From a virus, in IMG/VR virus record IMGVR_UViG_3300015206_000011, positions 1 through 21,472 of that record: a stretch of DNA of 21,472 nt; one strand, written 5' to 3'. Under the pieces are notes generated by a model. That model ran no database searches and was not told the origin of the DNA. It saw only the letters and a list, made by a program, of their open reading frames with translations. The position numbers and the translations under genes were made by a program. Shown piece by piece: positions 578-17,359 of this stretch (positions within the stretch are counted from its first letter, which is position 1; each line of letters opens with the position of its first letter).

Positions 578-2251
578 TCAGGCGGGCTGCCCCACCACCT
601 GGTGCGACCAGCCGATCAAGGTCTGGTTATCCGAGGTCAGAATGCTTGCGGTGATCCGCGCCACACCAATGCCGAGCCCGGTCCATTGCTGCAAGACCGC
701 GGCATTGGCGACGCCGCTGCCGCCTAGCGCGATCGCCGCGGTTCCCACTTGAGGCAACCCGGCCAACTCGACATAGGCCGATCCGCCAACCGGAAAATAA
801 TTGGTGACAGTCACCGAGAGCACTTGCGCGATCGTGGCGCCGGGCGAAAGCCAAAGCGAAAAATCGATCGCGCCGGTAACCGTCTCGCCGACGTCCATCT
901 GCGACAAATCAGGACCCTGCGGCATAGGCAATCCTAGCTTGGTAGCGGTTCTGCGCGGCATGAGGGTCAAAGCCGTCGAACGTGCGCGGAAGCGGCTGAC
1001 GAAGCGAGGATCGACGAGTAGCGCTGTCGTCAGTTTTAGAACCGCCCTCGCGCTCGCCATGCCCCTGGCAAAGCCCGAGAATGACGTAAACGGGAGCGAA
1101 CCGGTTAGAACTCCGCGCCCAGTGGTTTGCGCCTTTGCCAGCGAGGAAAGCCTCAGCATGCCCTTGATCGCGGAGTTGCCCGATAGTTTCGCAAATCCAA
1201 CGCCCGACAAGGCCGCGCGCAAGGTGGCACCACCGATACGGCCCGATGCGATGGCCTTTGATATCGACTGAAGGCCTGCCGTGAAGGTCGCCGAGGCAAT
1301 GGTAGACGCCTTTGCCGCAGCACGCCCCAACAATGGGACGATACCTCGCGGAGACGCTGCGCCCTTTGCCTTGGATTCCGAACGAGCCGTCAGCGTCAAG
1401 ACGCCCGATGGAGATGCCTTACCCTTGGCGACCGCAAATCCGAACGCCAGTAGCGCGACCTGCGCTCCGAAAACGAGAACGCCGCGACCACTTCCGACGA
1501 CTTTTGCCAGCGCTGCAAGCGATAGTTTCCCCGACGGCGATGCTTGCGCTTTGGCTTGAGCGGTTGACGCTGCTCTCAAACTCAGCACGCCCGAAAACGC
1601 GGCTTTTCCCGCGCCCATCGCCTTGGCAAGTGCGGCGAGCGCCAGCTGCGCGCCGAACACAAGCGCACCGCGACCGTTGCCCATGGCTTTCGCCAGGGCC
1701 GCAAATGACACCTTCCCAGATGCCGATGCCTGTAGCTTCGCCTGCGAGTCCGATCTTGCCGTCAATCTGATCGCGCCGGAAAAACTCGACCGCCCGACCG
1801 CGACGGCCTTGCCGATTGCCACAAGTGCCAACTGAGTGCCGAAAATCAGAACACCGCGGCCCGACGCCATCGCGTTGCCTAGCGCCTGCAGCGGCACAGT
1901 GCCGGATGGCGCGGCGGTCCCCTTCGCCACCGCCATCACGCGAGAGGCGAATGCGGCTGCACCACTCGCAGATGCCATACCCCTTGCCGATGCCAGTAAC
2001 CGCGACGATAGTCCGACCGCGCCCGATAATTGTGCGAGCGCCCTTGCTCCCGAAAATCCCCGTGCCGCGAGCGGCATTCTGCCGCTGAATACGGATCGAC
2101 CCTCGGCCTGGGCCTTCGCTATCGCCTTCAACGCCAGCGCCCCGGATATCGAGGCACGAGCAGAACTCATTCCTACCGCCTTGGCGGAGAGCGAGACTGT
2201 TGAGGCGCCCCCGCTCGGAAGTTCTTGTATCAGGCCATAATAAGCGTACAT
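578..2251 (-). CDS. Repeat-rich virion protein with C-terminal adaptor-like domain
   Basis: A 557-residue protein built almost entirely from Ala, Gly, Ser, Leu and Lys. Residues about 30-400 are tandem units of 20-21 residues with the pattern SG-x-L-x-L-x-A followed by an Ala/Lys-rich stretch and G-x-G. Three such units make an exact 62-residue super-repeat: IFG/VFG recurs at residues 136, 198 and 260, FSG/PSG at 157, 219 and 281, and SGK or RGI at 178, 240 and 302. Alternating small and aliphatic residues suggest stacked beta-strands (solenoid or fibre). Residues about 450-557 form a different, beta-rich domain (DVGETVTGAIDFSLWL...) resembling phage fibre-tail adaptor or Ig-like domains. Position among the last virion genes supports a tail fibre, spike or adhesin. 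The family assignment is inference; the repeat is directly visible. Confidence 0.8.
   Translation of the reverse strand: MYAYYGLIQELPSGGASTVSLSAKAVGMSSARASISGALALKAIAKAQAEGRSVFSGRMPLAARGFSGARALAQLSGAVGLSSRLLASARGMASASGAAAFASRVMAVAKGTAAPSGTVPLQALGNAMASGRGVLIFGTQLALVAIGKAVAVGRSSFSGAIRLTARSDSQAKLQASASGKVSFAALAKAMGNGRGALVFGAQLALAALAKAMGAGKAAFSGVLSLRAASTAQAKAQASPSGKLSLAALAKVVGSGRGVLVFGAQVALLAFGFAVAKGKASPSGVLTLTARSESKAKGAASPRGIVPLLGRAAAKASTIASATFTAGLQSISKAIASGRIGGATLRAALSGVGFAKLSGNSAIKGMLRLSSLAKAQTTGRGVLTGSLPFTSFSGFARGMASARAVLKLTTALLVDPRFVSRFRARSTALTLMPRRTATKLGLPMPQGPDLSQMDVGETVTGAIDFSLWLSPGATIAQVLSVTVTNYFPVGGSAYVELAGLPQVGTAAIALGGSGVANAAVLQQWTGLGIGVARITASILTSDNQTLIGWSHQVVGQPA
1286..1846 (-). repeat. 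Three diverged 186-bp tandem repeats inside the fibre-like gene
   Basis: Codons 136-322 of the 557-residue gene hold three tandem copies of a 62-codon unit, each made of three sub-units of about 21, 20 and 21 residues. Spacing of the landmark residues is exactly 62 each time. A fourth, more diverged copy (about residues 74-135) precedes them, with spacing off by one residue in places. The copies differ at many positions, so this is an old, selected protein repeat rather than a recent duplication. Confidence 0.75.
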
Positions 2252-11872: not shown

Positions 11873-12100
11873 CTACTGCTTCACGGCGCGGCGCAGGGCT
11901 TCTGTGTAGCGGTTGACCGCGATCTCAACGCCGGGGCCGCGATAGATCGCGCGGATCAGCGTGCCGGCGGCGAGCGCTGAGGCATCGAGGAATTCGCGGA
12001 TCGACAATCCTTGCGCGATCGCAGCGATGCGCCCGGCGATCGTCTTGACGTTTGCAACGCGGTTTGCGGATTGATCGTCGAGAATTCCGAGAGTGTCCAT
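11873..12100 (-). CDS. Small hypothetical protein between terminase and portal
   Basis: A 75-residue protein starting MDTLGILDDQSAN, predicted helical throughout (about residues 8-75), with a hydrophobic segment LDASALAAGTLIRAIYRG that is too short and charged at its ends to be a clear transmembrane span. An AGG-rich ribosome site (ACAGGTAATCG) is near its ATG. It starts eleven bases downstream of the large-terminase stop codon and ends 18 bases upstream of the portal start. Unknown function; conserved placement suggests a packaging or head accessory role. Confidence 0.68.
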   Translation of the reverse strand: MDTLGILDDQSANRVANVKTIAGRIAAIAQGLSIREFLDASALAAGTLIRAIYRGPGVEIAVNRYTEALRRAVKQ

Positions 12101-12111
12101 CGATTACCTGT

Positions 12112-13680
12112 CTAAATCATCGGACCCGCGATCACGATGGCGTCGCTGCCGGGGATGGACCGCGCATGACCGGTCACAAACGGCATCACGATCGGCGCAT
12201 CGGGATCGGCGATCAGCGCGTTGAACGCTTCGCTGGTTGAGTCCGCGTCGTCATCGTGCTTGACGTCCGGCCCGAAAGCTTCGAGCGCGCCAAACCAGTG
12301 TTCGTTCCAAGGGCCGCGCAACACCAGTACGTTGCCGGCTTCCGCTTGTGCAGAGAACGCCTTGAACCGCGTGACCTTGTCGCCTGAAGCCGTTTTGACG
12401 CGAACGTCATAACCGACGAGCAACTTGACCAGGTTGACCGCCTGCGCCTTGCCGGCAGCAGCCGGATCCTGCGGCAGTGCGATCCCGACTTCCTTGCCGT
12501 CGCTCGAGGCGATGTTCTTTAGCGCGACCTCAACATCGCCCGGACTGCCATACATGTGCATGTGGTGCATCACGATGAAGCGGCCGTCCGTCAGGCGCGC
12601 GATCTTTGTCGCGGTTGTCGCGTCCGGATCGTTGTTTTCGGTCTTGATCGTCGCCGCGAAGTCCCAGCCGCGCTTTGGCGATCCGGCGATCGGCGGGCAG
12701 ACATCAACGACCTGGCACCACGACCGCCTGAAGTAGAGACCCGCGGCGGAACGGATTTTCCAGTTGCCGCCGAGAAGCCGCTCGCGATCGACGGTCGTCA
12801 GTGCCATCAGGTTGGCGCGATAGCCCGGATCACGCTCCATCAGGATGGAGTTGTCCTCGAGCTTGGCCGGAATGAACGTGACCGACTTCGGCTCGCAGCC
12901 GGGATGCTTTTCGCGCAGCTCGCGGGCGCTGTTGCCCCATTCCAACGCATCGTTGACGCGGATGAACCAGCGCAGCACGCCGGCGCGCTCGAAGATTGGC
13001 AGGCCCGTGTCCTGGTTGATCCACCAGGAGATGAAGTCCGCGACCCAGCTTTCGGCGTCGGGGTTGCATGTGGCCCTGATATAGGGCCGAACGTTACAGG
13101 TCGAGCGGTTGCGCGACATCATGTAGAAAAACATCTGACGCGAGAAGTGCGTCAGCTCGTCAAATCCGAGAAACGGGATTTGCGAGCCCATCCAGTCCAG
13201 CACGGTCTTTTCGTGCTCGAGGTGACCGAAGGCGACCTTGGCGCCAGATGGAAAGCGCCAGAGGATATCGCCGCCGCCTTGACGTAACGTGGCGTTGAAC
13301 TGGCCATACAGAGGGATCGACGTATCGAGCAGCGAGCCCTGCTTTTTGACATCGACCAGCGTGCGGCGAAAGATGACGGCGCCGAAGGCCTGTACGCTGA
13401 TGTGGCGCAGCGCTTCAAGCAACAGCGCGTAGGATTTGCCGCCGCCGGCCGCGCCGCCGTAAATTGCAATGTCCGCTGAAGACGAAAGAAACTGTTCTTG
13501 CGGGCCCGGTTGAGGCTTAACGCCCGTTAGACGGGAGCTCGACGGCTGGGCTTGACGGCTCGCTTCCTGATCCTTCTGACGGAGCGATATCCGGCGCTCG
13601 ATCTCCGCTCTCACCTGCCTCAACGTCCCCGCCGCTAGCGGCGGCGGCAAGAATGCTTTCGAACTGGATGAGTTGGTCAT
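12112..13680 (-). CDS. terL: Terminase large subunit
   Basis: A 522-residue terminase motor/nuclease. ATPase: Walker A GGAAGGGKS (75-83), Walker B PFLGFDE (169-175). Nuclease: RNase H-like acidic residues Asp340 (KRGWDFAATIK), DPAAAGK at 406-411, and a HDDDADSTSEAF cluster at 475-486, as in TIGR01630/terminase_6C proteins. It couples ATP hydrolysis to DNA packaging through the portal and makes the cuts that start and end packaging. The annotated ATG overlaps the small subunit by 164 bases and has no strong ribosome site. The first 55 residues are low in conservation (Ser/Arg-rich), so the real start could be later, at a GTG at codon 23. Family call is certain; start is open. Confidence 0.93.
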   Translation of the reverse strand: MTNSSSSKAFLPPPLAAGTLRQVRAEIERRISLRQKDQEASRQAQPSSSRLTGVKPQPGPQEQFLSSSADIAIYGGAAGGGKSYALLLEALRHISVQAFGAVIFRRTLVDVKKQGSLLDTSIPLYGQFNATLRQGGGDILWRFPSGAKVAFGHLEHEKTVLDWMGSQIPFLGFDELTHFSRQMFFYMMSRNRSTCNVRPYIRATCNPDAESWVADFISWWINQDTGLPIFERAGVLRWFIRVNDALEWGNSARELREKHPGCEPKSVTFIPAKLEDNSILMERDPGYRANLMALTTVDRERLLGGNWKIRSAAGLYFRRSWCQVVDVCPPIAGSPKRGWDFAATIKTENNDPDATTATKIARLTDGRFIVMHHMHMYGSPGDVEVALKNIASSDGKEVGIALPQDPAAAGKAQAVNLVKLLVGYDVRVKTASGDKVTRFKAFSAQAEAGNVLVLRGPWNEHWFGALEAFGPDVKHDDDADSTSEAFNALIADPDAPIVMPFVTGHARSIPGSDAIVIAGPMI

Positions 13681-14107
13681 AGCTGAGCTTGGATGCGTCG
13701 ATCGTTTGGACCGGACCGCCGCCGCGTCCCGTCAGTTCGGTGCGGCGCGGCGCGCGAAGGCCCAGCATGTCGCGGATCTGGCCGGCGGCGTTGAGCCGAT
13801 GCGTCCAATCGATCGGCGGGTTTTCGCCTGGGAATTCGGCGCCGTCACCGTAGAGCATGGCATTGAGGGTTTCCTCGATCCGCCTGCGCTTTTCGAGCAG
13901 CATCTCATCGGAGAGGTCCTTCTGGCGGAAATAGGCGATCCAAGCCCGGACGTCCTTGTTCGCCTCCCACTTGGTGGCCTGCCCGTTGTCAGGATTGCCG
14001 CCGACCTTGCGACAGGCTTCAAACTTGGACAGCCCAAGCGAGCGCTCGAAGGCATAGGCCTTGCGCTGTGGCGCGATCGGTTTGGGTGAAAGGACTTCCG
14101 TCTGCAC
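13517..14107 (-). CDS. terS: Terminase small subunit
   Basis: A 196-residue probable small terminase. Residues 1-60 (APQRKAYAFERSLGLSKFEACRKVGG...WEANKDVRAWIAYFRQ) resemble the DNA-binding helix-turn-helix of terminase small subunits. The middle is coiled coil (LSDEMLLEKRRRIEETLNAML), then an acidic, Ser/Pro-rich C-terminus (residues 155-196). It recognises the packaging start and regulates the large subunit. The start is GTG at 14107; no in-frame ATG lies between it and the stop at 14138. The 3' third overlaps the large terminase gene by 164 bases in another frame. First gene of the late operon, downstream of two terminator-like hairpins. Confidence 0.85.
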   Translation of the reverse strand: MQTEVLSPKPIAPQRKAYAFERSLGLSKFEACRKVGGNPDNGQATKWEANKDVRAWIAYFRQKDLSDEMLLEKRRRIEETLNAMLYGDGAEFPGENPPIDWTHRLNAAGQIRDMLGLRAPRRTELTGRGGGPVQTIDASKLSYDQLIQFESILAAAASGGDVEAGESGDRAPDIAPSEGSGSEPSSPAVELPSNGR

Positions 14108-14155
14108 AGTTGGGATTCCAAAGGATTCCGAATGGACTCAATCTCGCCAGAAAAC

Positions 14156-14184
14156 GCCGCTCGTCTCTTTCAAGCACGAGCGGC
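14156..14184 (-). terminator. Second minus-strand hairpin terminator candidate
   Basis: Nine-bp perfect stem (GCCGCTCGT and ACGAGCGGC on the minus strand) around an 11-base loop, followed by GTTTTCTGG. The short U-run makes it a weaker intrinsic terminator than the one at 14249-14273. It lies about 50 bases upstream of the small-terminase start. Confidence 0.55.
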
Positions 14185-14243
14185 AGTTGAGGGAGGAAAC
14201 GCCCAAGGAGGGCAGCGACTGATCGAAAGCAGTCCCTATAAAC

Positions 14244-14273
14244 GGCAAAAAGCCCCGCTTTTGGCGAGGCTTT
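14244..14273 (-). terminator. Intrinsic terminator downstream of the NusG-like gene
   Basis: On the minus strand: AAAGCCTCGC, loop CAAAA, GCGGGGCTTT then TTGCC. Ten-bp stem with one U-G wobble, U-run TTTTT. In the plus direction the same position is a C-A mismatch, so the structure favours minus-strand transcription. It ends the early operon 150 bases after the NusG-like stop codon. Confidence 0.72.
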
Positions 14274-14345
14274 GAGGGTATGGGACAATGACTGGAGGTG
14301 TTCGGGGCGCGACCTGTTCGGTTATCCGGCTCCAAAATACCCGAC

Positions 14346-14366
14346 ACCAGCTAGAGCTGGTTTTTG
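14346..14366 (+). terminator. Small hairpin with U-run on the plus strand
   Basis: ACCAGC, loop TAGA, GCTGGT followed by TTTTG on the plus strand. On the minus strand it has only a preceding run of A. No plus-strand gene ends here, so it may block stray antisense transcription into the NusG-like gene or be chance. Confidence 0.35.
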
Positions 14367-14422
14367 AAACGATCCGTGGACCGCCGACCGGGAACCAGAG
14401 GAAGTGGATTAACTCAGACTTC

Positions 14423-15040
14423 CTAAATTCGCTCGATCTGATGCGGGAAGACCGTGATCGGTACTTTCCGCCCTATCATGTTTACTTCAACGCTGATTCG
14501 CCCATTCTTAGCAACCTTCACGACGAGGCCGGGAGGCCAGTGGTGCGATAAATCGTCGATGAACTTCACTTTCTCCCCAAGTTTGAAGTTGTGCCCTGTG
14601 GCTTCCGGCTTCGGCGTATTCATCGTGACGTCGATGCGGCGGATGATCGTCAGGTCGCGATCGCGAAGCAGCAGAGGGTTGCCGGAGAAGGTTCGTACGA
14701 TGTCCATTATGGACATGACGCGCTCGGTTTTGCTTTTGAAATCGACATCCGGCTCGCGCGGGCTAAGAACGTAAGGGAGAATGCCAACCCTCACGCTGCG
14801 CGAGGTGTGACGACCCGCAACCATGCGTTTGGTGGCGGCCAATCGTTCGTAGCTGGGCCAATAGGCCCGAAGGCCCTGCCGCCTCAACCCATCGACAGCA
14901 TCCAGATGATAGTTCGATCGCACCACCACCATGTACCATTCGGCACCTTCGTCCCGATCGGGCGACAACGTCACCCCGGTAATCCCCTCCAGCGCGCCTC
15001 TGACCTGTTCCATGTTCCCCGCCTCTGCCGCCATATCCAT
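14423..15040 (-). CDS. NusG-family transcription elongation / antitermination protein
   Basis: A 205-residue protein with the NusG/RfaH layout. Residues about 34-135 are the NGN domain (EWYMVVVRSNYHLDAVDGLRRQGLRAYWPSYERL and VRVGILPYVLS), which binds the clamp helices of RNA polymerase. Residues about 150-205 are a KOW domain (FKLGEKVKFIDD, WPPGLVVKVAKNGRISVEV). Residues 100-145 are a linker that joins them. Cellular NusG is about 180 residues, so this is full length. A phage paralogue at the end of the early block, with terminators directly downstream and late genes beyond, is expected to modulate elongation there. ATG 15040 has GAGG nine bases upstream; a second in-frame ATG two codons on is possible. 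Confidence 0.85.
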   Translation of the reverse strand: MDMAAEAGNMEQVRGALEGITGVTLSPDRDEGAEWYMVVVRSNYHLDAVDGLRRQGLRAYWPSYERLAATKRMVAGRHTSRSVRVGILPYVLSPREPDVDFKSKTERVMSIMDIVRTFSGNPLLLRDRDLTIIRRIDVTMNTPKPEATGHNFKLGEKVKFIDDLSHHWPPGLVVKVAKNGRISVEVNMIGRKVPITVFPHQIERI

Positions 15041-15073
15041 CGCCCTCGCCTCGTGCTGGTTTGAAGTTTCGAA

Positions 15074-16417
15074 TTATTTGACGTGTGAGTAGTCGTCTTC
15101 CGTCATCAACGACGCTGTGGTCGGTGGGCCTGTCTTGCTCCAGCTACCGTCCTTAAGCGGCGGCCAGGGATGAGGCACCCGAAGGCCCTTCACGCTCTTG
15201 CGGAACCTAAAATCACGATGGCTAAACGGCAGATCGTGGACGGCCGGATCGTGCGGCTCTTTCCAGATTTTGTGCGAGACGACTTCGAAGCCGGTCCAAG
15301 TCTTGAGCTTCTTGCGCCATGCGCCAAAACTCTCCGATCCCTCTTCGACGACGGCCGGGAAATCTTCCGTATCGCTATCGGCAAACGCAGCCATGGCGAG
15401 CAGGTCATTTCCGATCTCGCCGCGGCGCGCCACACCCCGAACGTTCGATTGCTCGCCTTCGCCGAAATGTGTTCGGAACTCGATTTTTGCGGTGAGGTGA
15501 GCGGCCTTGAGCGCCTGGCAGACATCGCTGTCTTCCGGATAAAACACCTTCGGGGGCAGCTCCGGCTGCTTTTCCGGAAGCCGCGCGTGTTCGAAGTTTT
15601 TGAAAATCCCCTCCTTCAAAAACCGTTCCGGCCGCACGGGCGGCGGCTTGCGCTTGGTCCGCTCGATGATCTTGGCGTATTCGGGCGAAGCGGCGGCAGC
15701 GCGGTATTGTTCGGCTGGTGTCAGCACGCCGAACAGCGGCAGCACCTTGTCCCATGACCAGCGGTCGCGATCGGGATAGTTCGATTTGAAATAGGCGAAG
15801 TGTTCAGGTTCCACTGCCGCTTCGCTTCCGTCCCGATCTTCATCGGATCGAACGCCCCCCGGAGGGGGGTTGGGGGGAGAGTTTAGTGGTTCAGGTTCAG
15901 AGATTAGGCCCTCGCACGACTGCGAGGGCTGACCGAGGGCTAACGCAGGGCTAACGGTTTCCAGTTCAGAATTTAGCCCTTGCTGGCTGCTAGGGCTAAT
16001 CGACGTTGTTTGCGTTGAGGAATTGTCGCTGTTTTCCGCATTTTCAAGCCCACTCGCCGACCGCTCGATATCATCGATATCGGCTTGCAACAGCATCCGG
16101 ATTTCATCGGTGGTGCGCTTGCCTTTGCCTTCGCTGTTGCGCCGCCCATTGCCATCCAGCCATTGCGGCAGCCGCACAATGACGCCGATCTGTTCCAGCC
16201 AGATCAACCGGCGGCGAACCGTGTCGGATGACAGGTCCGTATCCTCGGCAAGCTGTTCGATACTGACAAAGCAGGACCCTTCGCCGTTCACATAGAGGGC
16301 GAGTGCACGCAAGACAGTCTTTGCGTTCGGGTTGTTCAGAGGCAGGCTGCGCGCCCAAGCGTGGGCCTCGTCGGAAGCAACGTGGCGCGCGCGGCGTTTT
16401 TTTGCGTCGAATGTCAT
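15074..16417 (-). CDS. Winged-helix replication-type protein
   Basis: A 447-residue protein. Residues 1-90 form a winged helix-turn-helix (NAKTVLRALALYVNGEGSCFVSIEQLAEDTDLSSDTVRRRLIWLEQIGVIVRLPQW), the pattern of phage replication initiators and RepA/O-like proteins. A Ser/Gln/Pro-rich linker (about 125-200, with SPPNPPPGG) follows, then a conserved-looking C-terminal half (SNYPDRDRWSWDKVLPLFGVLTPAEQYRAAAASPEYAKIIE...). Probable role: origin recognition and loading of replication proteins. Start ATG 16417 was chosen because it overlaps the upstream TGA by four bases (ATGA); an upstream in-frame start adds six residues. Function is inferred; the HTH is clear. Confidence 0.75.
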   Translation of the reverse strand: MTFDAKKRRARHVASDEAHAWARSLPLNNPNAKTVLRALALYVNGEGSCFVSIEQLAEDTDLSSDTVRRRLIWLEQIGVIVRLPQWLDGNGRRNSEGKGKRTTDEIRMLLQADIDDIERSASGLENAENSDNSSTQTTSISPSSQQGLNSELETVSPALALGQPSQSCEGLISEPEPLNSPPNPPPGGVRSDEDRDGSEAAVEPEHFAYFKSNYPDRDRWSWDKVLPLFGVLTPAEQYRAAAASPEYAKIIERTKRKPPPVRPERFLKEGIFKNFEHARLPEKQPELPPKVFYPEDSDVCQALKAAHLTAKIEFRTHFGEGEQSNVRGVARRGEIGNDLLAMAAFADSDTEDFPAVVEEGSESFGAWRKKLKTWTGFEVVSHKIWKEPHDPAVHDLPFSHRDFRFRKSVKGLRVPHPWPPLKDGSWSKTGPPTTASLMTEDDYSHVK

Positions 16418-16692
16418 TTGCGTCGCTCGCCCCACTTTTTTAAATTCAGTTTGTAATCGACCGCCCCGCGCTCGTTGATATCCGCGCTGATCAGCTTTTT
16501 CTTTTCCAGATCAATCAGGCACTCGATCACCCTGCTATCGGGAAGATTGGCGTCGCGGGCCAAACGCCGCCACGATGTTGTTCCGCGACCGCCTTTATCT
16601 GCATCCAAGGCAAGAAACATCAGAACGAGGACCGCGTACGGATCGCCCATCCTGTGGGAATGCCACCATTCGATCTGATTTTTGCTCTTCAT
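16414..16692 (-). CDS. Small winged-helix DNA-binding protein
   Basis: A 92-residue protein. Residues 20-75 (AVLVLMFLALDADKGGRGTTSWRRLARDANLPDSRVIECLIDLEKKKLISADIN) fit a winged helix with a helix-turn-helix (SWRRLARDANLPDSRVIECL), and a basic C-terminus (KLNLKKWGERRK). It is coupled to the larger winged-helix gene by ATGA. It could be a replication accessory, a DnaD-like module, or a small transcription regulator. There is no strong ribosome site at its ATG, but the gap to the upstream gene is 35 bases. Confidence 0.72.
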   Translation of the reverse strand: MKSKNQIEWWHSHRMGDPYAVLVLMFLALDADKGGRGTTSWRRLARDANLPDSRVIECLIDLEKKKLISADINERGAVDYKLNLKKWGERRK

Positions 16693-16727
16693 GATTCAGC
16701 GCCGCGGCGGTGCGTGAGACGATGCGA

Positions 16728-16985
16728 TCATGGCCAAGCAGCCTCCGAATTGCAGGGAGGTGCGAGATCGGTCGTGATCTGCGGGCCGTCGGCGGTGCGC
16801 CGCCACGCGCGCGGATCCGGAGCGCCGAGCACCGTGACGCGGACCGCGCCGCAGTTGCGGCAGGTCTTCTCTTTTTGCTCGAAGCCGGATGGCGAGACGC
16901 AAGCGGCAATCAATACCTCGGCGCCGAAGACATGCGGCGGGTAATGTGGCTTGGTCGCCAAATTCTCGTGGCCAATGACGTTCAC
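16728..16985 (-). CDS. Small CxxC protein, GTG start
   Basis: An 85-residue protein with KTCRNCGAVRVTVLG (residues 40-54) followed by PDPRAWRR and a final Cys near residue 78 (LAPPC). This looks like a half zinc-ribbon, but only three Cys (C42, C45, C78) are plausible ligands; a His or a partner protein would have to give the fourth. GTG start at 16985 overlaps the upstream TGA by four bases (GTGA). Position in the replication block suggests a nucleic-acid-binding accessory protein. Confidence 0.68.
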   Translation of the reverse strand: MNVIGHENLATKPHYPPHVFGAEVLIAACVSPSGFEQKEKTCRNCGAVRVTVLGAPDPRAWRRTADGPQITTDLAPPCNSEAAWP

Positions 16986-17359
16986 GCGGATAGCCCCTCG
17001 CGTTTCTTGTCGAGCGCGCTTCGCCCCGGCAGGGGATCGCCGAGCAGGTAGGCCGTGAGGGAAGAAGGTTCCGGCAGGTGCACCGGGCGTTGCAGTCCAC
17101 TATGGCTTTCCACGAAATGGTTTTTGGGACTGACGCGTTCCTTGTAGGAGCGTTTCGGCGCAGCCCTTTCAGCGCGATTCCAGAACCTGTTTTTGCAGGA
17201 GGCCAGCGTGCGATCCGGGAATTGTGCGGCGACATCCGCCCACGCTTGTTTGTTCAAGCCAGGAAGACCGTTCACGCCGGGGACAAGCCTGGAATTACAG
17301 AGTTGCAGTAGTTTTTCGTCCTCTTGATCGGTCCAGAAAACCCTTTTTCCCGCGGTCAT
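16982..17359 (-). CDS. Myb/SANT-like DNA-binding protein
   Basis: A 125-residue protein. Residues 8-62 (FWTDQEDEKLLQLCNSR ... WADVAAQFPDRTLASCKNRFWNRAE) match the Myb/SANT pattern: a regularly spaced aromatic (W9), a second Trp (W40), and the third-helix S-C-x-N-R-F-W segment that contacts DNA. The 12-16-residue insert in the middle (LVPGVNGLPGLNKQ) is longer than usual. The C-terminal half is basic and Pro/Ser-rich with no recognised fold. Coupled to helicase upstream (ATGA) and to the small CxxC protein downstream (GTGA). Likely binds phage or host DNA; target unknown. Confidence 0.78.
   Translation of the reverse strand: MTAGKRVFWTDQEDEKLLQLCNSRLVPGVNGLPGLNKQAWADVAAQFPDRTLASCKNRFWNRAERAAPKRSYKERVSPKNHFVESHSGLQRPVHLPEPSSLTAYLLGDPLPGRSALDKKREGLSA

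Follow-up and report, generated by a model that had tools for sequence, protein, structure and literature searches.

The region between the early and late genes of this phage genome carries a gene for a NusG-like protein, an intrinsic terminator (T1), an RNA of the alphaR8 (suhB/MmgR) family that ends in a second terminator (T2), and then the packaging genes, and the same order is found in other phages. On balance, and with confidence only a little above even, we read the region as the early-to-late switch of a tailed phage, in which the NusG paralogue is the last early gene and would drive read-through of T2, at the end of the alphaR8 leader that follows T1, into the late genes.

The window, which is the whole stretch of DNA analyzed here, is an IMG/VR virus record of 21,472 bases, and all of its genes that were tested for function are on the minus strand. 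Read 5' to 3' on that strand, genes for a helicase, a Myb-like protein, and a replication initiator are followed by the NusG-like gene and then by the terminase and portal genes. Since the replication genes are upstream and the terminase and portal genes downstream, the NusG-like gene and the RNA sit at the boundary between early and late genes (Table 1). A long ORF at positions 578 to 2251 (minus strand) contains degenerate Ala/Gly/Ser-rich repeats and is probably a tail or fibre protein. The phage probably infects rhizobia-like bacteria; its link to Bradyrhizobium comes from its relatives.

Table 1. Coordinates of the features at the early/late boundary of the window
Feature	Position	Strand	Evidence or remark
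Replication-initiation protein (HTH_36), early gene upstream of the NusG-like gene	15074..16435	-	Pfam/PHROG searches
NusG-like (NGN + KOW) protein, 205 aa, proposed antiterminator	14423..15040	-	PHROG 6386, AF2 model, Foldseek
T1, intrinsic terminator downstream of the NusG-like gene	14247..14273	-	Fold z = -2.9; kept in L001
TATAGGG element after T1; possible -10 or pause element	14234..14240	-	In relatives (TG)CATAGGKTGTGC, at a fixed distance after T1
SL1, GACUG-CUUUCGAU-CAGUC	14217..14234	-	Sequence varies between phages, hairpin kept
alphaR8 (suhB/MmgR, RF00519) small-RNA gene or leader RNA	14142..14220	-	Rfam
SL2, GCCC-UCCUU-GGGC, weak hairpin before the alphaR8 core	14201..14213	-	Fold
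UUUCCUCCCU, single-stranded 10-mer seed of alphaR8 sRNAs	14190..14199	-	Exact match
T2, sRNA terminator hairpin (stem 14184-14156) with imperfect U-tract GTTTTCT	14149..14184	-	Fold and covariation
First late ORF, putative small terminase (terS), by position only; no Pfam match	13517..14107	-	
Terminase large subunit (Terminase_6N/6C), terL	12112..13680	-	

PHROG 6386 (transcription antiterminator) matches residues 30 to 202 of the NusG-like protein (E = 1.9e-10) and is matched by 14 of its 15 aligned homologues. The AlphaFold2 model, calculated from a 15-sequence alignment (mean pLDDT 76), contains an NGN-like domain at approximately residues 34 to 141 and a KOW-like barrel at residues 157 to 204, and how the two domains are oriented to each other is uncertain (pTM 0.54). 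The first Foldseek matches in the PDB are NusG, RfaH, and the NusG chains of the lambda and rrn antitermination complexes. The NGN plus KOW architecture of a specialized NusG paralogue is thus found by the model and Foldseek, whereas the Pfam NusG profile alone falls short (E = 0.0074, a weak match below the Pfam cut-off). The earlier note had described a full-length NGN-KOW protein as the last early gene and a late operon on the same strand; the former is borne out by PHROG 6386, the model, Foldseek, and the gene order, and the latter by the minus-strand terminase and portal genes. When the protein of the window was used as the query, the protein search gave no matches in annotated phages or genome contigs, and it was the RNA motif that led to the relatives.

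T1 has the form AAAGCCTCGC-CAAAA-GCGGGGCTTT at positions 14273 to 14249, followed by a U-tract. It folds with a z-score of -2.9 (2 of 200 shuffles were equally good) and is not listed by the consensus terminator scan because the tail after the stem counts too few Ts. An intrinsic terminator had been claimed at 14244-14273, with a second hairpin at 14156-14184. The first is confirmed as T1; the coordinates of the second are exact and its fold is stronger still (z = -3.6, 0 of 200 shuffles equally good), but it is not a plain terminator, being the 3' end of an MmgR/alphaR8-type RNA. All seven predicted pairs of T2 have changed on both sides among the relatives, i.e., the changes are compensatory.

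No E. coli-type sigma-70 promoter was found on either strand of positions 12000 to 17000 (0 versus 1.2 expected by chance), in agreement, for this consensus, with the earlier statement that a clear late promoter is lacking. In the aligned leaders, TAGGKT is invariant, although this invariance is partly circular, as the motif was used to fetch some loci and had to be present in the alignment. A sigma-70 promoter located downstream of T1 and before the sRNA was considered but not adopted because TAGGKT is conserved without a conserved -35 element, and no promoter was placed; a sigma-54 spacing, tried by eye, does not hold either. T1-like terminators are located upstream of 31 of 32 non-redundant leaders (1.0 in shuffles), and the TGCATAGGKT block follows T1 at a fixed distance. 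By eye, this block is duplicated together with a T1-like hairpin in three loci (L216, L095, and L169). The unit of a terminator hairpin and TATAGGGT/CATAGGKT occurs there at least twice in tandem between the NusG-like and late genes (5188-5680 in L216, the leader of L095, and after 2034 in L169).

The Rfam family RF00519 (suhB; MmgR, the makes more granules regulator) matches the window at 14220-14142 on the minus strand with 45.9 bits (gathering score, 41), and T2 is the 3' hairpin of this match. The whole RNA folds with a z-score of -2.9. Members of the alphaR8 family, including MmgR and SisA-D of Caulobacter, have a 10-nt single-stranded UUUCCUCCCU core, a weak hairpin before it, and a Rho-independent terminator, and SisA uses the core to repress transporters and TonB-dependent receptors (PMC12559287). 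All three structural features are present in the RNA of the window, and the preserved seed suggests that the terminated leader RNA may also work as an sRNA. Within the window, possible seed targets in the phage's own mRNAs (up to 2 mismatches) are not above chance (17 matches versus 13.6 expected). RNAalifold on an alignment of 21 leaders paired TAGG with the seed region; this pairing is doubtful and was not used.

The order of NusG-like gene, T1, alphaR8 RNA, and terminase is kept in the relatives. The closest of these (L001) encodes a NusG-like protein 68% identical to that of the window, followed by T1, an alphaR8-like RNA, and late genes; its terminase differs by eye, its T1 is identical by eye over 27 nt, and its RNA, at 26.7 bits, falls short of the Rfam cut-off. 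When viral contigs were scanned with nothing but a 14-nt segment of the RNA (GGCGTTTCCTCCCT), at least 119 contigs matched, and the core is followed by a terminator-like hairpin in 87 of 121 sequences (the matches listed, plus L001 and the window). Among the matches listed, 13 contigs encode a NusG-like protein, and for 12 of these 13 genes the RNA motif follows on the same strand, no more than 500 nt past the end of the gene, while random motif placement expects 0.35 (P <= 5e-5). RF00519 was above its cut-off in all 14 further phage loci tested. A second leader pattern, TAGGKTGTGCGGTAGCG, which is independent of the first motif, gave 15 new viral loci, 12 of which have an alphaR8 core approximately 45 to 49 nt downstream; where the upstream sequence of a core-bearing locus was sufficient, a NusG-like gene was always present 43 to 275 nt upstream (10 of 10). 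In genome contigs, the TAGGGT motif gave Bradyrhizobium sp. YR681 (L140) as the only real case, and five other matches were rejected as chance.

The NusG-like proteins of the relatives fetched by the motif are only 14 to 22% identical to that of the window. The large downstream ORF scanned is TerL in 10 of 10 NusG-positive loci and belongs to the Pfam groups TerL_ATPase/TerL_nuclease or GpA, unlike the Terminase_6 of the window. The divergent NusG-like proteins and the different terminase families together indicate that the module crosses phage lineages. In a close homologue (L121, 56% identical), the NusG-like gene has no sRNA leader. As a separate observation, dozens of phage contigs (among L002-L120) contain an alphaR8/MmgR-like RNA that has the UUUCCUCCCU core and a terminator but no NusG-like gene nearby, for example after a capsid gene (L060 and L078) or a DNA polymerase gene (L005 and L018). 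Phages may often carry alphaR8 RNAs, most of them undescribed.

For the reciprocal test, NusG-like loci were fetched by protein alone from 147 genomes of the genus of Bradyrhizobium sp. YR681. The exact sRNA core follows the NusG-like gene in 6 of the 11 strongest loci and in 9 of 30 overall; many of the weaker matches are probably not phage genes. L169 has a core that appears degenerate by eye, and the exact core is absent in five prophage-type loci (L159, L161, L163, L165, and L166). In L163, the NusG-like gene is followed apparently by a terminator hairpin alone, without the sRNA core, and then by late genes; the terminator may be the indispensable part. RF00519 was found in 146 of the 147 genomes, with 1 to 12 copies each. 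Strain YR681 (G001; L143-L147) has five alphaR8 copies, and because three of these (L143, L145, and L147) have the phage-type T1-TAGGKT leader, some of the alphaR8 paralogues counted as chromosomal are probably prophage copies.

Two temperate Bradyrhizobium phages that are produced spontaneously, ppBdUSDA122-1 (OP596612) and ppBeUSDA76-1 (OP596613) (PMC10127595), both carry the module. Their NusG-like genes are annotated as a hypothetical protein and an ABC transporter substrate-binding protein, respectively, and are followed by an alphaR8-type leader, an HNH endonuclease, two small ORFs, terminase, and portal. The RNA of ppBeUSDA76-1 scores 62.8 bits against RF00519, and that of ppBdUSDA122-1 does not reach the cut-off of this Rfam family.

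In ppBdUSDA122-1, the annotated start codon of the HNH gene is only 13 nt past the T2 stem. In most other loci, the first usable late start follows the T2 stem at a distance of approximately 4 to 25 nt, the single distances being approximate because the starts were called mechanically; in the window, 48 nt separate the stem from the terS start codon. With such short gaps, a promoter could hardly, if at all, fit between T2 and the late genes, and since T2 abuts the first late gene in most relatives, the late mRNA probably reads through this sRNA terminator, as judged from the sequence. The T2 tails of the phages contain a median of 5 Ts per 8 nt, compared with 7 in chromosomal alphaR8 genes (Mann-Whitney p = 3e-8, a guide only, as the phage sequences are partly related). 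Instead of an upstream T1-like terminator, the chromosomal copies have CTTGC... and CATATT-like promoter boxes. In two loci, the HNH start beside T2 (L215, 5427; L216, 5626) has no obvious Shine-Dalgarno sequence.

In the proposed mechanism, T1 would end the early transcript that carries the NusG-like gene, and a leader of the alphaR8/MmgR family (SL1, SL2, the UUUCCUCCCU seed, and T2) would then be made from a start presumed to follow T1. By default, transcription would stop at T2 and release a small RNA of the Hfq type, with a presumed sRNA action. The NusG-like factor would modify RNA polymerase in the leader, which would allow read-through of T2 into the packaging and head genes. Several observations count against this switch: no promoter was placed for the leader, L121 has no sRNA leader, the five Bradyrhizobium loci lack the exact sRNA core, alphaR8 RNAs occur in phages away from NusG-like genes, and the gap in the window is 48 nt. 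In addition, RfaH-type paralogues act mainly against Rho and not against intrinsic terminators.

Tentatively, and with low confidence, we suggest that the leader may have two outputs: when terminated at T2, it would be an alphaR8 sRNA that retunes the host, and when read through by means of the NusG paralogue, it would be the 5' end of the late mRNA. If so, in many alphaproteobacterial phages the antiterminator would turn an sRNA for host control into the late transcript, and the targets of the sRNA might be, for example, transporters or TonB-dependent receptors of possible use to phages.

The alphaR8 RNA could instead be a separate trans-acting sRNA that retunes host mRNAs and was acquired together with a NusG-like gene whose protein acts elsewhere, which we consider unlikely. 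The seed UUUCCUCCCU is kept while the terminator sequence drifts, the alphaR8-type RNAs found after capsid or DNA polymerase genes stand elsewhere in phage genomes, and the targets of SisA in Caulobacter (PMC12559287) would suit such a role; however, this explanation does not account for the adjacency to the NusG-like gene and the constant order up to terminase in phages whose terminases are unrelated, and late transcripts must still pass T2, which abuts the late genes.

A rather improbable alternative is that the NusG-like protein is an RfaH-like anti-Rho or translation-coupling factor for a long late operon, with T1 and T2 as ordinary partial terminators. The NusG/RfaH fold and the HNH start next to T2 without an obvious Shine-Dalgarno sequence are in its favor, as is the ops-like string GCGGTAGCG in the leaders of relatives. 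E. coli ops is GGCGGTAGCGTG (PMC5995543). Most relatives carry GTGCGGTAGCG in the leader, and so do chromosomal alphaR8 genes. This string forms the 5' arm of SL1 and pairs with the sequence just after it; because GCGGTAGCG also opens chromosomal alphaR8 genes and pairs within SL1, it was not counted as a recruitment site. The window and L001 have other SL1 sequences without the string, and an ops-like site (GCGGTAGC) was not seen in the leader of the window, so the RfaH-type recruitment raised in the earlier note finds no counterpart there.

That T1 and T2 merely insulate early from late genes, with a late promoter missed by the consensus scans, is very improbable: promoters of alphaproteobacteria and phages do depart from the E. 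coli consensus, and the gap from T2 to the late start is 48 nt in the window, but it is only approximately 4 to 25 nt in most relatives, and the alphaR8 family identity and the recurrent NusG-like neighbor would be left unexplained.

We found no description of a late module with a NusG-like gene and an alphaR8 RNA in the open-access literature searched. If the switch model is true, phages that combine a NusG paralogue with a copy of a widespread host sRNA would have solved the antitermination problem differently from those with Q- and N-type factors, the textbook examples. The phage NusG-like proteins of PHROG 6386 would gain a concrete target site, and some alphaR8 copies in alphaproteobacterial genomes would be parts of prophages.

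In phage lambda (Q, pR', 6S RNA, and tR'), the regulator gene likewise ends the early region and is followed by a short terminated RNA and then by the late genes. Q is unrelated to NusG and the 6S RNA is unrelated to a host sRNA, whereas the protein described here is NusG-like, with no homology to lambda Q, and no pR'-like promoter was found. The logic of lambda Q invoked by the earlier note is supported in part, by the NusG paralogue at the boundary, the terminators, the lack of a recognized promoter, and the recurrence in unrelated phages; T2 abutting the late genes and the poorer U-tracts of the phage T2 make it plausible. In Shiga-toxin phages, early termination of the late transcript also gives an Hfq-type sRNA, StxS, but this RNA is unrelated and belongs to a lambdoid Q system.

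The RNA of the window shares with MmgR and SisA-D (RF00519; PMC12559287, PMC7143759) the seed UUUCCUCCCU, the preceding weak hairpin, the Rho-independent terminator, and a score that passes the Rfam cut-off. In the chromosomal copies, the promoter is of the host type and the U-tract is strong, whereas in the phage copies T1 comes immediately before the RNA, the U-tract is poorer, and the late genes follow immediately. The RfaH/ops system (PMC5995543, PMC6391919) is similar in its NusG paralogue and in the position of GCGGTAGCG between gene and operon in the relatives; here, however, GCGGTAGCG belongs to SL1, is common to chromosomal copies, and is absent in the window.

LoaP is a NusG paralogue that reads through an intrinsic terminator after binding a hairpin in the leader RNA, and the dfn and mln leaders of Bacillus velezensis likewise combine a NusG paralogue, a short hairpin leader, an intrinsic terminator, and a long operon (PMC12691694). 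SL1, SL2, and T2 provide the same arrangement of hairpins and intrinsic terminator before the target operon. In Firmicutes, LoaP binds a UNCG hairpin and acts on antibiotic operons, whereas the present system is that of a phage with an alphaR8 sRNA leader; the SL1 loop of the window contains UUCG, which is not kept in the other leaders folded. The most economical reading, by analogy with these systems, is plausibly a layout like that of lambda Q-tR' with a chemistry like that of LoaP-dfn.
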